A stretch of 62,693 nucleotides of DNA from Candidatus Poribacteria bacterium (GTDB taxonomy: Bacteria; Poribacteria; WGA-4E; WGA-3G), in NCBI GenBank assembly GCA_022824265.1, contig JAJEAG010000094.1:1-62693 (forward strand), in the 5' to 3' direction. The translations under genes and the position numbers were made by a program. Shown here one piece after another: positions 13,958 to 59,120 of this stretch; positions within the stretch are counted from its first letter, which is position 1; the number at the start of each line of letters is the position of its first letter. The notes below the pieces were generated by a model. The model searched no databases and was not told where the DNA came from. It saw only the letters and a list, made by a program, of their open reading frames with translations.

Positions 13958-14857
13958 ATGAACGATATTATTCAAAATCTAAATTCAATTGAAAAATGGG
14001 TTGATTTCAATTCGCCACCACCCTCTAATTTCAAAACAAACACAGAATTTATGAAGTTTTCTGTTGAAATAATGAATCGGTGCTTATACCTGCTCAAAAC
14101 AGGAGCTGTTTCAGCACCGAATATAGAAACCGCTAGCAAAGGATATACTAAGCATAAAGCTATAATCGTGGGACACATGGTGCGACTCACCAAACTATAT
14201 GAAGGGGTTCTAATTCATATTTGTAGTAATCATCAAGAATTAGCTCACATCTTTTTTCGATTAATATTTGAAACCGCAACAAGGATGCAATATCTCATCA
14301 CATCAAAACCTCAGAAAAAATCCTGTAGAAGTTTCATTTTAGCTTCCTACAAACCTGAAAAAGAGATGCTTCAGGATTTGAAAAACAAAGCGAAACAAAA
14401 ACCATTAATTTCGATTGAGAAAAGGATGAGAAGGAGTATTATATCATGGCTTAAAAGGGATGGAATCACTCAGAAAGAATTGTTCAATAATACAATTTGG
14501 AATGTTGACGGGAAAAATTTCCGAGACATTATGAAAATGTTCAACCTAGATTCAATGTATTCCTATGGTTTCGGAAACACTAGTCATCATGTTCACGGTG
14601 ATTGGAAAGATATTAGATATTATCATCTGAAACAAGACGGACGATACTATCAACCTAACTTGTTTTTTACCGAACCCGATCCGAGGTTAACATGTCCACT
14701 TACCAGTATTTGCCTTGACGCGCTTTTGGCCTACCTTAAATGGAACAAATCCGATTCGGATAACTTCATAACTGCCGTAGTTTTGAAGTTAGGGGAACTT
14801 AACCATGCTCTTGATAATGCACACGAAAACACGCTTAGCGAGCAATATGAGGTATAA
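13958..14857 (+). CDS. DUF5677-like protein, 299 aa
   Basis: A soluble, mostly helical protein. The segment VRLTKLYEGVLIHICSN followed by FFRLIFETATRMQYL and the later STSHHVHGDW-like motif (NTSHHVHGDWKD, residues about 206-217) resemble DUF5677, a family of unknown function that contains a conserved His near its C-terminal helices. The base composition is more AT-rich than the neighbours and the codon use looks different, compatible with transfer. Its stop overlaps the start of the DUF3179 gene (TAATG), so translation of the two may be coupled. Confidence 0.55.
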   Translation: MNDIIQNLNSIEKWVDFNSPPPSNFKTNTEFMKFSVEIMNRCLYLLKTGAVSAPNIETASKGYTKHKAIIVGHMVRLTKLYEGVLIHICSNHQELAHIFFRLIFETATRMQYLITSKPQKKSCRSFILASYKPEKEMLQDLKNKAKQKPLISIEKRMRRSIISWLKRDGITQKELFNNTIWNVDGKNFRDIMKMFNLDSMYSYGFGNTSHHVHGDWKDIRYYHLKQDGRYYQPNLFFTEPDPRLTCPLTSICLDALLAYLKWNKSDSDNFITAVVLKLGELNHALDNAHENTLSEQYEV

Positions 14858-16083
14858 TGATACACCAAAAATTTCAAAATACTAACACGACATTACTTAA
14901 AAACATGTTACACTATCTAACAAACTATTTTATTCTCTTTGCCCTACTATTTGTCACTACACGCTACGCGACTGCAGCAGAATACGATAACGACCCTATC
15001 AGAACACTGTTACCCTTTGACGCAATACCTGCTATCACAGAACCGCAGTTTGTGCCTGCCAACCAAGCAAAATTAGACGCGGATGCACCCGTCATCGGGG
15101 TAACTTTTAACGATGAAAGCCATGCTTATTCTGTATATCTACTGAACGGACATGAGATCGTCAACGATGTTGTCGGTGGAGAGAAAATCGCTACCACCTG
15201 GTGACCACTCTGCAAAACGGCTATCGTGTATAGCCGGGAACTTGACGGTAAAACATATACTTTTGGTGTCAGTGGCAAATTATGGCGAGATGCACTGTTA
15301 ATGTACGACCATCAGACGCGTTCCCTCTGGTCACATATCACAGGGGAAGCAATTCAGGGACCGCTGAAAGGCAAAAAGTTGAAACCACTTACCTCTATAC
15401 CACAAATTGAGTGGCAAACATGGATGAAAAATTATCCTAATACTAAAGTGCTTTCAGTTTTTGTCAGAGGGAGTATGCGTGAAAGCATCAGTCGTGACTC
15501 GTATGAAAGGTATCATGCAAGCAAAGACACAGGTGTGAGTGGTACGAGTTACACCGATAAAAGATTACCCAATAAATCTCTTGTAATCGGAGTCCAAGTA
15601 CAAGTAAAAGATGGTGCCGATGGTATAGATGGTCACGCAGGTGCTGATGGACAACTTGGTGCTGACGGACAGGACGGTGCTGATGGTGGTGTTGTAGAAC
15701 TGCGTAGTTCACAACGCAATCCGACATATAAGCAGCCCAAAGATTCTGGTAACACGTACTACCGCGCCTATCCACTTATACAATTTACGAAAAAAGCTAT
15801 TATCAACGATTCAATTAATGGTGTGCCTTTGTTAATTTTTCACGACAAAGAGTCGTTTGCAACCGCTGTCTTTAAACGTATAGTAGACAATAAAGCGGTT
15901 GTTTTTACATCCGTGGTTGGTTATATCGCTCAAGATAATACTGGCACAGAATGGAATCTCATTACAGGTAAAGCGACATCGGGTAAATATAAGGGGCAAC
16001 GTTTAGAAAGACTATCCGCTGTCAATATCTATTGGTTTGCTTGGGCAAGATTCTATCCAGAAACAACAATTTACAAACCTTAA
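14857..16083 (+). CDS. DUF3179 family protein, predicted selenoprotein (UGA codon 116)
   Basis: Read through one in-frame TGA at 15202-15204, this is a single 408-aa DUF3179 protein. Before the TGA: a signal-peptide-like N-terminus (hydrophobic core about residues 22-37, end ATAAEY) and DAIPAITEPQFV...HEIVNDVVGG. After it: PLCKTAIVYSRELDGKTYTF and FGVSGKLW. In relatives I recall the joining motif is TYCPLCGTA; here it is TTW-UGA-PLC, so the UGA replaces the first Cys of a CxxC motif (Sec116-P-L-Cys119). A perfect hairpin follows at 15218-15236. Residues 253-277 are an inserted collagen-like Gly-X-Y stretch, after which the second half of the domain resumes. The function of DUF3179 is unknown; an exported redox role is plausible. 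A plain nonsense mutation is the alternative. Confidence 0.82.
15202..15236 (+). promoter_or_regulatory. predicted SECIS element in DUF3179 gene
   Basis: The UGA (15202-15204) is followed by 13 nt, then a 7-bp perfect stem CGGCTAT (15218-15224) / ATAGCCG (15230-15236) around the loop CGTGT. Bacterial SECIS elements are short hairpins just after the UGA, about 11 nt away in E. coli fdhF, with a G among the first loop bases. Here G is the second loop base. The geometry nearly equals that of the element at 57794-57826. Confidence 0.72.
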
Positions 16084-54387: not shown

Positions 54388-57300
54388 ATGGAATCAAGAA
54401 TGAAACGTTTTGTCATCTCTATAGGGGTATTAGCAGTCCTCGGTGGAGCATTTGCAGCTTGGATCAATATATTCCCAGATTTATTATGGTTCAAGATGGT
54501 GCAATATCCCAACATTTACACCAAAATCCTTACAACAAAAATCTTAGTTGGTGTTATCGTTGGCGTGGCATACCTAATAATCCTTTTGGTTAATCTGTTT
54601 ATAGTTTATAAACTAACACCCGCCCAACTCAGTCCAGCTTTCCTCGGTGGAACTGAATTCACTGGTGGAGAAACCAATACCCGTAAGATGATATATGGAG
54701 GACTCACGCTCATTGCAATCCTGTTTAGTATATTGATGGGGTATACCGCAATTGATCGTTGGGAAGTCTTTTTACGGTATACGCACGCAGAAGATCTGAA
54801 TTTCCAGTCTGCTACACCAATAGTAGTTGAAGATAATATTGCTTCAAACGAAGTCACTGTTTCAACTTTAGAACTTCAAGCAAAAAAGATTAAGGTTGGT
54901 GATCAGGTAAGAGTTCATGTTGATGGGAATGACCCAATAACTGTCCAAGTCGAAGAGGTAATCACAAGAAGTCTTGAACAGGAGGGAAAACAGATAACGA
55001 TACCGGTTGGTCTACGTTTTGATTCTGAGGTTCAGATTGAAAGTGGACAAACAGCTTATTTTACATCTGCGGCACGCGACCCAATTTTTGATCAAGAAGT
55101 ATCTTATTATGTTTTCAAAATGCCTTTAGAACGATATATCATCGGCACATTCTTCGGTATCTTTTTCTTAGTAACGATTTTTGCAATAATCATCTATTTT
55201 TTCCACGGTTTGATCACAGGTGAAACAAACCAACTAAGGTTTCAACCCCCAGCGAGTGTGAAAGCACATCTGTTCACTTTAGCAGCGTTGACGCTGCTAT
55301 TCCGTGCATGGAACTACCGTTTTGTTATGTTTGATCTGTTATATACATCAAATGATGTAGTGCGTGGAGGTGGTGGATATGCTGCAATAAACGCCCGACT
55401 ACCAATCCTATGGATTATGTTAGTAATCACCATTTTGTGTGCCATTGTTTTTATAATAGGCATTTTCCTACGACGCAATACTATTGTTTTCACAGGATTT
55501 ATTGTATTCATAGTTGCTGGTTTCCTTGGACAGTTATATCCAAGACTTGTTCAGACCTACCGTGTTGAACCTAACAAACAGGTATTAGAACAAAGTTACA
55601 TTAACTATAACATCAAGGCAACACTCAATGCATATGGATTAGAAATCAACACTGTGACCGAAGAAGAATACCCGCTAACAAAGCAACTCTCCTATGCTGA
55701 CATAACGAGTCCTGAGAATGAACCAGTTCTCAATAGTATCCGTCTTTGGGATTGGCGTCCCTTGCGCAGAACATTCCGCCAACTGCAAGAACTACGATCA
55801 CAATACGATTTCTTTGATGTTGATATTGATAGGTACAAGGTCAATGACGATATTCAACAAGTGATGCTATCCGCACGTGAACTAAACATCAATGAACTCC
55901 CACCAGCCGTCAGAAATGATTGGTATAAACAAACCTATACATATACGCACGGCTATGGAGCAGTTGTCAGTCCTGTAAACGAAATAGTGAACGGTAATCC
56001 AAATATGTTCATTAGAGGATTACCCCCAATTGAGTATGAAGACCGATGGCCTCATAGGTTTAACGCAGACCCGGGGCCACGCATTTACTACGGTGAGCGG
56101 ACCGACAGATACGTCATTGTTCACCCACAACGCACAGAATTAAAACTTGAATTTGACTATCCACAAGAAGGTCAACAGTATGTTGACTACGCTTACCAAG
56201 GTAATGGAGGTGTTCAACTTTCTTCTTTCTGGCGTAAACTGGTCTACATGCTCAAGTTTAATAATGAGATTAAATTTATCTTACCTGGTGAAATTAAATC
56301 TACAAGTAAAGTGCTCTATGATCGAAATATCAAAAGGCGGATTCACAAAATTGCTCCTTTCTTACGTTATGACGGAGATCCTTATGCTGTTATTCATAAT
56401 GGAAGACTTGTTTGGATGATTGATGCGTATACTATCACTCATCGATATCCATATTCCGTTTCAATGAAAGAGTTTATTCAGCAAAGAAGACAACAGGGTC
56501 CCATGAACCAACGGGATGGTCAACCGTGGGGAAACTACATCCGAAATTCAGTTAAGGTAGTCGTTGATGCTTATGATGGGGCAGTTGATTTTTACCTCAT
56601 TGAACAGGTACAAGATCCGATTGTTGAATGTTACCGTAAGATATTCCCGTCCCTTTTTAAACCATTTAATGATATGCCTGCTGACTTAAAAGCGCATATC
56701 CGTTACCCAACTACGATGTTTCTCATCCAATCACGAGTCTATCAAGATTACCACATGAAAGATCCGATAACATTTTATGCTGGTGAAGACCAATGGGAAA
56801 TCGGTACAGAACTTTACGACAATACAGACGCACAAAGCAGACAAGTCACTACGCCGACACAGCAAGTCAGTCCTCTTACACCCCAAAGTATAGTAGAGAA
56901 GAACTTACCGAGTAATGTACAACCAGTTGAACCGTACTATGTTATCTTACGTCTGCCAGGGGAAGAAAAACCTGAATTCATGCTGATGTTGCCGTATACA
57001 CCTCGGAACAAACCAAATCTTATCGCATGGCTTTCCGCGCGATGTGATTTACCGCAGTACGGTCAGCTTCTCGTCTACCGATTTCCTAAGAGGGAATTGG
57101 TCTCCGGTCCAATGCAGGTTGAAAACTTTATTAGTCAGAAACCAGAGATTTCACAGCAAATCAGTCTATGGAACACGCAAGGCACACGTGTTCTACGCGG
57201 CAACCTACTAATTATGCCGATGAACAGTGCGCTTCTATATATTGAACCCATTTATATCCAGTCTGAAGATGAGAAAACAGCTATCCCTGAACTAAGACGT

Positions 57301-57612
57301 GTCGTTGTCGGTTATGAAGAAGAAGATAACCTTCATGTCGTGTGGGGAGAAAGTCTTGATGATGCACTCAGAGAGATGTTCGTAAATACTTTGGGTTCAC
57401 AAAGCGATCTCTCTGCTACAATAGACGGTACTGTTGAAATAACTGAACAACCGCAAGTTGCGGCATCGGTGCGCGGGTTAATAGAACAGGCGGTCGGTTA
57501 CATCAATAGCGCAAAAAATGCACAACGTAACGGTAATTGGGCAGAGTACGGACGGAATCTTCAACTCTTAGAGAATACATTGAAACAACTTGAAGAAAAT
57601 GTACAAGAGTAA
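54388..57612 (+). CDS. UPF0182 family membrane protein
   Basis: A 1074-aa protein of the UPF0182 (COG1615) family. The N-terminal third has about seven membrane segments (for example VISIGVLAVLGGAFAAWINI near residue 8, GVIVGVAYLIILLVNLFIVY, and TFFGIFFLVTIFAIIIYFFH near 255), followed by a large extramembrane region with SIRLWDWRPLRRTFRQLQEL, YAVIHNGRLVWMIDAYT and IKRRIH-type segments. Function unknown in the family. A region of about 85 residues between the fourth and fifth membrane segments (about 155-235) forms an insert with beta strands. CAAGGAG precedes the ATG. It is the last large gene before the small UGA-containing gene. Confidence 0.9.
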   Translation: MESRMKRFVISIGVLAVLGGAFAAWINIFPDLLWFKMVQYPNIYTKILTTKILVGVIVGVAYLIILLVNLFIVYKLTPAQLSPAFLGGTEFTGGETNTRKMIYGGLTLIAILFSILMGYTAIDRWEVFLRYTHAEDLNFQSATPIVVEDNIASNEVTVSTLELQAKKIKVGDQVRVHVDGNDPITVQVEEVITRSLEQEGKQITIPVGLRFDSEVQIESGQTAYFTSAARDPIFDQEVSYYVFKMPLERYIIGTFFGIFFLVTIFAIIIYFFHGLITGETNQLRFQPPASVKAHLFTLAALTLLFRAWNYRFVMFDLLYTSNDVVRGGGGYAAINARLPILWIMLVITILCAIVFIIGIFLRRNTIVFTGFIVFIVAGFLGQLYPRLVQTYRVEPNKQVLEQSYINYNIKATLNAYGLEINTVTEEEYPLTKQLSYADITSPENEPVLNSIRLWDWRPLRRTFRQLQELRSQYDFFDVDIDRYKVNDDIQQVMLSARELNINELPPAVRNDWYKQTYTYTHGYGAVVSPVNEIVNGNPNMFIRGLPPIEYEDRWPHRFNADPGPRIYYGERTDRYVIVHPQRTELKLEFDYPQEGQQYVDYAYQGNGGVQLSSFWRKLVYMLKFNNEIKFILPGEIKSTSKVLYDRNIKRRIHKIAPFLRYDGDPYAVIHNGRLVWMIDAYTITHRYPYSVSMKEFIQQRRQQGPMNQRDGQPWGNYIRNSVKVVVDAYDGAVDFYLIEQVQDPIVECYRKIFPSLFKPFNDMPADLKAHIRYPTTMFLIQSRVYQDYHMKDPITFYAGEDQWEIGTELYDNTDAQSRQVTTPTQQVSPLTPQSIVEKNLPSNVQPVEPYYVILRLPGEEKPEFMLMLPYTPRNKPNLIAWLSARCDLPQYGQLLVYRFPKRELVSGPMQVENFISQKPEISQQISLWNTQGTRVLRGNLLIMPMNSALLYIEPIYIQSEDEKTAIPELRRVVVGYEEEDNLHVVWGESLDDALREMFVNTLGSQSDLSATIDGTVEITEQPQVAASVRGLIEQAVGYINSAKNAQRNGNWAEYGRNLQLLENTLKQLEENVQE

Positions 57613-57635: not shown

Positions 57636-57670
57636 AGTCAATAATGATTTATACGAAGGAGGTGAATCAG

Positions 57671-57916
57671 ATGTCTCTTGATTGGAAACCACGTCACAGG
57701 GATATGATTATAGGTGGAATTCCTTGGCTTGCAAGAATTACCGATAAAGCGAATGCAAAACTACAAGGAATAATCGGTGAATACATATACCCGTGACCGC
57801 AGGACAAAATGTTCCTGGAGGAACATAACATTTCTGCTGACGAATTTGTTGAAATGGTAGAGAACAATCCATCAGATGATGAGATGATTGCTGCCATGAA
57901 GAAATTGAATAGTTAA
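57671..57916 (+). CDS. DUF5069 family protein, predicted selenoprotein (UGA codon 42)
   Basis: Read through the in-frame TGA at 57794-57796, this is an 81-aa DUF5069 protein. Before the TGA: WKPRHRDMIIGGIPWLARIT then GIIGEYIYP. After it: PQDKMFLEEHNISADEFVEM. In relatives I recall, the motif reads GEYIYPCP with a Cys; here that Cys is replaced by the UGA (YIYP-Sec-PQD). AAGGAGGTGA, a near-perfect Shine-Dalgarno sequence, lies 5 nt before the ATG. A perfect 7-bp hairpin follows the UGA at 57809-57826. Family function is unknown. The coding parts on both sides remain intact, which argues against a decayed gene. A sequencing error or recent nonsense mutation is the alternative. Confidence 0.85.
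57794..57826 (+). promoter_or_regulatory. predicted SECIS element in DUF5069 gene
   Basis: UGA (57794-57796), 12 nt, then a 7-bp perfect stem ATGTTCC (57809-57815) / GGAACAT (57820-57826) with loop TGGA, G at the second position. The distance and stem length nearly equal those of the element at 15202-15236. Confidence 0.74.
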
Positions 57917-58055: not shown

Positions 58056-59120
58056 TTGAAACTAAAAGAATTACGCGATGAAATAAATAGTATAGATGAT
58101 CAACTCCTAAACCTTCTTCAGAAACGTGCGGAGATTTCCAAGAAGGTAGGTTCATTAAAGGCGGATTCAGGTGCGGAAGTACATGTTCCACATCGTGAGC
58201 ACCAAATACTTAATCGTCTCAAAAAACAGAACCACGGTATATATCCTGAAAATTCGATTGAGAAGATTTGGACTGAGATTTTCAATGCTTCACGAGGTGT
58301 GCAAACTCCAAATAGAGTTGCTTTTCTTGGACCACAAGGCAGTTTCGGACACACAGCAAGTCTATCGTTTTTCGGTGTTCATGCTGAAATGATTCCAATA
58401 ACACCACAGGTTGATATCTTTACAGAAGTAGAAACAGAACGTGCCGATTTTGGTGTTGTTGCAATACAAAATTCAGTTTTCGGGACCGTTCGAGATGTTT
58501 TAGAACGATTCCAACATACATCTCTGAATATCTGCGCGGAGATATTCCAACCTATACAACACAATCTAATCTCAAAATCCCAAATCCCTGAGGTTCAACG
58601 TATCTATTCGCACAGTCAATCCTTTGCACAATGTAGATTGTGGTTGACTAAGTTTATGAAATCCGTTGAACAGGTAGAAGTGGTGAGTACGTCTGAGGCG
58701 GCACAACGTGCAGCAAATGAGCCAAATTCCGCAGCTATCGCAAGTAAACTTGCAAGTGAGATCTACGAAGTTCCTGTGTTAGTTGCCTCTATCATGGATG
58801 AACCTAATAATACAACACGTTTCCTTGTTATAGGGGAACAAATTGTTGGAAAAAGTGGTTATGATTGCACCTCTATCTTCTTCGCAGTTGAAGACAAGGT
58901 TGGCGCATTGTACGAAGTATTAGAAGTCTTAGAAAAGCATGATTTGAGCCTAAGTTATATAGAATCACTCCCTTCCAAAACCAAATCTTGGGAATATATC
59001 TTTTTTGCGGATATTGAAGGTCATATTGATGATGACAACGTAAATTCTGTTATTGAACATCTTGAGAAGATATGCCGTGATGTCAGGATTCTCGGTTCTT
59101 ATCCTCGCGGCACAAAATAA
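58056..59120 (+). CDS. pheA: bifunctional chorismate mutase/prephenate dehydratase
   Basis: A 354-aa P-protein of phenylalanine synthesis. Residues 1-85 are an AroQ-type chorismate mutase (LKELRDEINSIDDQLLNLLQ; KRAEISKKVG). The prephenate dehydratase domain covers about 90-265 (VAFLGPQGSFGHTASLSFF; the conserved TTRFLVIG in NNTTRFLVIGEQ). A C-terminal ACT domain, about 270-350 (SYIESLPSKTKSWEYIFFAD), binds phenylalanine for feedback inhibition. The start is TTG at 58056, with GGAG about 10 nt before it; no ATG fits. The order of domains is standard. Confidence 0.95.
   Translation: MKLKELRDEINSIDDQLLNLLQKRAEISKKVGSLKADSGAEVHVPHREHQILNRLKKQNHGIYPENSIEKIWTEIFNASRGVQTPNRVAFLGPQGSFGHTASLSFFGVHAEMIPITPQVDIFTEVETERADFGVVAIQNSVFGTVRDVLERFQHTSLNICAEIFQPIQHNLISKSQIPEVQRIYSHSQSFAQCRLWLTKFMKSVEQVEVVSTSEAAQRAANEPNSAAIASKLASEIYEVPVLVASIMDEPNNTTRFLVIGEQIVGKSGYDCTSIFFAVEDKVGALYEVLEVLEKHDLSLSYIESLPSKTKSWEYIFFADIEGHIDDDNVNSVIEHLEKICRDVRILGSYPRGTK

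Follow-up and report, generated by a model that had tools for sequence, protein, structure and literature searches.

A May 2026 inventory recognizes 119 prokaryotic selenoprotein families or subfamilies (PMC13188914), and its Table 1 includes DUF3179, which is already listed as a selenoprotein family (PMC9312934, PMC13188914). The bacterial selenocysteine insertion sequence (SECIS) model given in the same inventory has a G in the first two positions of the loop, with the loop lying 16–37 nt from the UGA codon (PMC13188914). For Poribacteria, the sole item concerning selenocysteine (Sec) found in the literature searched is the co-occurrence of SelA and SelB in bins of sponge symbionts (PMC5649159). 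A Cys-form DUF5069 protein from Leptospirillum rubarum, of unknown function, is available as PDB structure 3OMD.

Our study examined a contig of 62,693 nt from a sponge-symbiont Candidatus Poribacteria bacterium (GCA_022824265.1, JAJEAG010000094.1; hereafter the window) and found a DUF5069 gene that, judged from its sequence and that of its relatives, very probably encodes an 81-residue selenoprotein with Sec at codon 42. Sec insertion is well supported, because the UGA codon pairs with Cys codons across genomes, a hairpin follows it, the Sec machinery is encoded, selection persists past the UGA and UGA is a normal stop elsewhere. The comparative evidence suggests that DUF5069 is almost certainly a previously unlisted selenoprotein family, present in at least three bacterial phyla. 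DUF5069 (PF16798) is absent from Table 1 of the inventory (PMC13188914), and no mention of it was found in the literature searched, which takes in few subscription journals and no bioRxiv preprints, and an unseen report is therefore possible. Both results agree with the initial annotation of this locus, which knew of no report of Sec in DUF5069.

The DUF5069 gene and its UGA/Cys column

The gene occupies positions 57671–57916 of the forward strand (81 codons plus TAA), running from an ATG at 57671 to a TAA at 57914–57916, with no in-frame stop besides the TGA of codon 42 (57794–57796, + strand), and it has orthologues within the phylum. When read through the TGA, its product matched PF16798 with an E value of 1e-13 and 52 bits, compared to a gathering cut-off of 27, and the match spans only positions 4–75 of the 133-position profile. 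No NCBIfam model matched the window protein or any of its 49 relatives. A Shine–Dalgarno sequence, AAGGAGGTG, lies at 57656–57664 on the same strand, and its AGGAGGTG is retained by most UGA orthologues. The initial annotation had described a TGA within the family motif of an otherwise intact 81-codon gene, a Shine–Dalgarno sequence ahead of it and a perfect 7 bp hairpin beginning 12 nt after the UGA; all of these were recovered, the hairpin at 57809–57826. The window genome is 4.45 Mb in size and 97 % complete, and the contigs matching it in named genomes come from Candidatus Poribacteria metagenome-assembled genomes (MAGs), the nearest being 99 % identical in protein.

The predicted Sec codon aligns with TGC or TGT in Cys orthologues from Poribacteria, Latescibacterota, Chloroflexota and Bacillota. 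Among the 85 Poribacteria genomes searched, 72 carry the gene at near full length, broken by a single stop, a UGA, whose codon position was identical wherever a copy was examined. Six class-level relatives, none of which has the hairpin, carry TGC or TGT at codon 42; in two genomes belonging to the same family, and in five less closely related, no full-length copy was found. A search of 64 Latescibacterota genomes recovered 43 copies of full length, of which 36 have a single in-frame TGA and the other seven have none, and in the UGA copies that were fetched the positions of both the UGA codon and the hairpin are identical to those in Poribacteria. In Chloroflexota (400 genomes searched) UGA was present in 4 of about 35 close copies, three of these four being full length. 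Loci fetched from named genomes carried TGA in 61 of 80 cases and TGC or TGT in the other 19. The pairing of Cys and Sec in this column, which the initial annotation had proposed examining, proved exact: the 180 aligned locus rows, in which some genomes are present twice, comprised 141 TGA, 32 TGC and 7 TGT, with no other codon. Frameshifts or other stops in close relatives, named by the same annotation as grounds for rejecting the idea, were looked for and none was seen. In total, UGA occupies column 42 in more than 110 genomes from three phyla, including single-contig chromosomes (such as G046, G080, G082–G084 and G023).

Purifying selection persists beyond the UGA, with a pN/pS of 0.16 downstream compared to 0.10 upstream. 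A tree of 116 rows, built from 83 columns by a quick method, requires five changes between Sec and Cys labels, at least two of which are forced by well-supported branches; 83 columns are too few to assign Sec or Cys as the ancestral state. Loci L049, L050 and L051 appear to use UGA twice in the same frame, as Sec at codon 42, where a SECIS follows, and later, without a SECIS, as the stop.

The putative SECIS hairpin and the selenocysteine machinery

The putative SECIS, ATGTTCC-TGGA-GGAACAT, spans 57809–57826 on the + strand, with its apical loop at 57816–57819, and is marked out by its fold, by covariation and by frozen codons. It begins 12 nt past the UGA, and its UGGA loop, 19 nt past the UGA, agrees with the published bacterial model (PMC13188914). 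The predicted folding energy of this region is −16.9 kcal/mol (z = −2.9 relative to dinucleotide-shuffled sequences). Of all 2602 TGA triplets in the window, counting both strands, only 33 (1.3 %) are followed at such a distance by a perfect stem of at least 7 bp, and the coincidence of such a stem with a Pfam-matching readthrough frame is therefore not attributable to chance.

The hairpin sequence was found in 60 of 61 UGA copies and in none of 19 Cys copies. The remaining UGA copy has the compensated form. L053, which carries a 3 nt insertion, has the compensated stem GTATTCC-TGGA-GGAATAC, and a stem pair is changed from G-C to A-U in L053 and L133. In 89 distinct UGA copies from two phyla the apical loop is UGGA without exception. 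Counting stem pairs from the base, the outermost is often unpaired, the second is mostly U-A, A-U, G-U or G-C, and the third is G-C in 77 copies and C-G in the other 12. For 30 chosen sequences from both phyla the covariation score was 0.261, compared to 0.079±0.020 after shuffling (0 of 500 shuffles reaching it), although relatedness can inflate such scores; in the same sequences 89.5 % of stem cells were paired, compared to 77.6±1.7 in shuffles. Pairings slid along the alignment scored far below 0.261, apart from one at 0.109. The hairpin is conserved and covaries across UGA copies, and this and every other computational check proposed by the initial annotation gave a positive outcome.

Constraint on the hairpin is also visible in the codons that it overlaps. 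Codons 48–51 (TTC CTG GAG GAA) are invariant in all 43 distinct Poribacteria UGA genes, whereas most of the gene varies heavily at synonymous sites, and pS is 0.11 in the hairpin codons compared to 0.63 in the remaining downstream part; the same freezing is seen close to the start, at codons 4 and 6, in these 43 genes. A SECIS covariance model trained on the DUF5069 family (R1) gave a single match in the window, at the codon 42 site (72.9 bits), and did not detect the DUF3179 gene or SelD. Its weaker matches in some Cys copies (e.g. 24 bits in L137) reflect shared coding sequence.

Genes for Sec synthesis and insertion, the absence of which the initial annotation had held to count against a selenoprotein, are present in the window genome as tRNA-Sec, SelA, SelB and SelD. 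The tRNA-Sec has the anticodon UCA, scores 78 bits and lies 60 bp behind SelB, and SelA was found with 609 bits. SelD (L073 1501–2427, equivalent to G000:C8:37723–38649) itself contains a single in-frame UGA, within KCAG-U-ASK, where SelD proteins usually have their Sec. SelA was detected in all 40 UGA-form genomes among the 58 Latescibacterota and Chloroflexota genomes tested, although in one of them the match was a fragment that scored under the cut-off, and was absent from three of the 58, all Cys forms. Cys-form Poribacteria also mostly retain SelA, and the machinery alone therefore does not decide between Sec and Cys forms. With these components, SelA would make Sec-tRNA-Sec using selenophosphate supplied by SelD, SelB carrying Sec-tRNA-Sec would bind the hairpin, and the ribosome would insert Sec at codon 42 rather than terminate, a step with strong comparative support.

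Fold, possible function and alternative explanations

Sec42 occupies the Cys position of the motif G[ED]Y[IV][YF]P-C-P and is the sole Cys or Sec residue among the 81 residues of the window protein. An AlphaFold model based on 49 sequences (predicted local distance difference test score, pLDDT, of 85.5) has four helices and places Sec42 just before helix 43–51, at its N-cap. The only significant Foldseek match was 3OMD (E=3.8e-4, TMq 0.84, root-mean-square deviation 1.1), and no other functional analogue was found by this search. All 49 rows of the set A6, drawn from several phyla, match DUF5069 at E ≤0.001, and P7, R8, W19, R22, D25, K26, A29, Y38, P41, C42, D45, L49, F59 and D69 are invariant among them. 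The Cys had been described as conserved by the initial annotation; this holds for the short subfamily (49 of 49 rows in A6) and does not extend to some DUF5069 paralogues. Two such paralogues in the window genome lack a Cys at the Sec position: a 447-residue protein with three DUF5069-like repeats (L003, G000:C79) and a 148-residue protein (L005, G000:C1). As both lack it, DUF5069 appears to be split into one branch with Cys or Sec and another without Cys.

The upstream neighbour of the gene encodes a UPF0182 membrane protein (54388–57612, + strand; Pfam UPF0182), an arrangement shared with most Poribacteria Sec forms (56 loci). Downstream lies pheA, encoding chorismate mutase/prephenate dehydratase (58056–59120, + strand; Pfam CM_2, PDT and ACT; synteny in 57 loci). 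In Poribacteria pheA is immediately 3′ of both Sec and Cys forms, which backs their orthology. A partial bacterial 16S rRNA gene is present at 1–868 on the − strand, cut by the end of the window.

Several Latescibacterota and Chloroflexota carry a kinase-like gene 12–63 nt upstream of DUF5069, whether the latter is of the Sec or the Cys form (L142 846–1856, L167 3–989, L192 2–943, L193 1–939 and L141 3883–4938). The label was given by eye from the sequence, there being no Pfam match above the cut-off, and the proteins share 28 % identity between the two phyla. Of 83 Poribacteria genomes, 77 contain a single homologue of it, which does not adjoin the DUF5069 gene there. A possible functional tie between DUF5069 and this protein is a lead.

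Judged from its position and the predicted fold, Sec42 might most plausibly, if tentatively, serve as a nucleophilic selenol of low pKa in a redox reaction that involves one Sec, with a small thiol or another protein as the resolving partner. The main alternative, only slightly less probable, is a selenoprotein in which Sec42 serves instead as a ligand, be it in metal binding, selenium carriage or sensing, or as a regulatory switch, with a 41-residue product made at low selenium. The lack of a second Cys to resolve an oxidized selenol would fit such a role, as would the existence of Cys-less paralogues, which indicates that the fold works without Cys, and the conserved placement beside pheA in Poribacteria and beside the kinase-like gene in other phyla. 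However, the helix N-cap position and the exchange of Sec with Cys are typical of reactive thiols, and the invariant set holds no further Cys or His to complete a metal site. The joint picture, of a new helical, non-thioredoxin selenoprotein family with a solitary Sec in P-U-P, spread over three phyla, in which Sec and Cys have been exchanged several times and which has a functional link to the kinase-like protein, is doubtful when taken as a whole.

Two observations weigh against Sec insertion at codon 42. No tRNA-Sec above the cut-off and no SelA match were obtained from three Poribacteria MAGs that have the UGA form (G030, G033 and G061, the last 96 % complete), probably because of assembly gaps. 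In addition, the Chloroflexota assignment is less certain, as the only hairpin in its three full-length UGA copies is a short one, GCUC-GGU-GAGC, that is not part of their minimum-energy folds.

Explanations that dispense with Sec fare considerably worse. UGA terminates 4 of the 39 window genes, and the codon 42 UGA might likewise be a true stop, leaving a pseudogene or a truncated 41-residue protein, or might stem from a sequencing or assembly error. We regard this as very improbable, as the identical UGA recurs in all three phyla, single-contig chromosomes included, and the second half of the gene has no conserved start codon (codon 47 is ATG in 27 of 43); the continuing selection on the downstream protein, together with the conservation of the hairpin, already refutes it. 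Decoding of UGA as Cys or Trp, through an altered genetic code or an atypical tRNA, would suit a column that aligns with Cys but is hardly credible, given that plausible in-frame TGA codons occur in only two window genes, each followed by a SECIS-like hairpin, that TGA ends other window genes, that the genome encodes a canonical tRNA-Sec (UCA) with a complete SelA, SelB and SelD set, and that the hairpin is missing where the codon is Cys, which is accounted for by decoding of the SelB type but not by an altered code. On the sequence, the UGA stops elsewhere and the apparent double use of UGA in L049 and L050 together make a changed code, a pseudogene and sequencing error all very unlikely.

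Implications and comparison with known selenoproteins

If DUF5069 is a selenoprotein family, the prokaryotic selenoproteome gains a family in sponge symbionts and in other uncultured phyla for which almost nothing on selenoproteins is reported in the literature searched. Within a domain of unknown function, a single residue would be marked out as probably chemically reactive, and the UGA/Cys pairs, with the hairpin present or absent, would offer a clean natural experiment on the exchange of Sec for Cys. Gene callers that treat UGA solely as a stop will truncate or miss the gene.

The window contains a further UGA-interrupted gene, of the DUF3179 family (PF11376), at 14857–16083, with its UGA at 15202–15204 in TTW-U-PLC and a Pfam E value of 2.5e-75 when the TGA is read through. 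A perfect hairpin, CGGCTAT-CGTGT-ATAGCCG, is found at 15218–15236. This is presumably the first selenoprotein implied by the initial annotation, which called the DUF5069 gene the second likely one. The two genes have in common a Sec-UGA and a hairpin within one genome, and their protein families are unrelated.

The window protein shares its domain, predicted fold and Cys position with 3OMD, and differs from this and other Cys-containing DUF5069 members in having a predicted Sec in place of the Cys. Thioredoxin-like selenoproteins have a thioredoxin fold and UxxC or CxxU motifs, whereas the DUF5069 model is mostly helical and has no second Cys, which places it outside that group. With known bacterial selenoproteins in general, DUF5069 shares a UGA with a SECIS directly downstream, Cys homologues and a genomic Sec machinery, yet it is distinguished from them by its P-U-P motif, its lack of a second Cys or Sec and its small helical fold.
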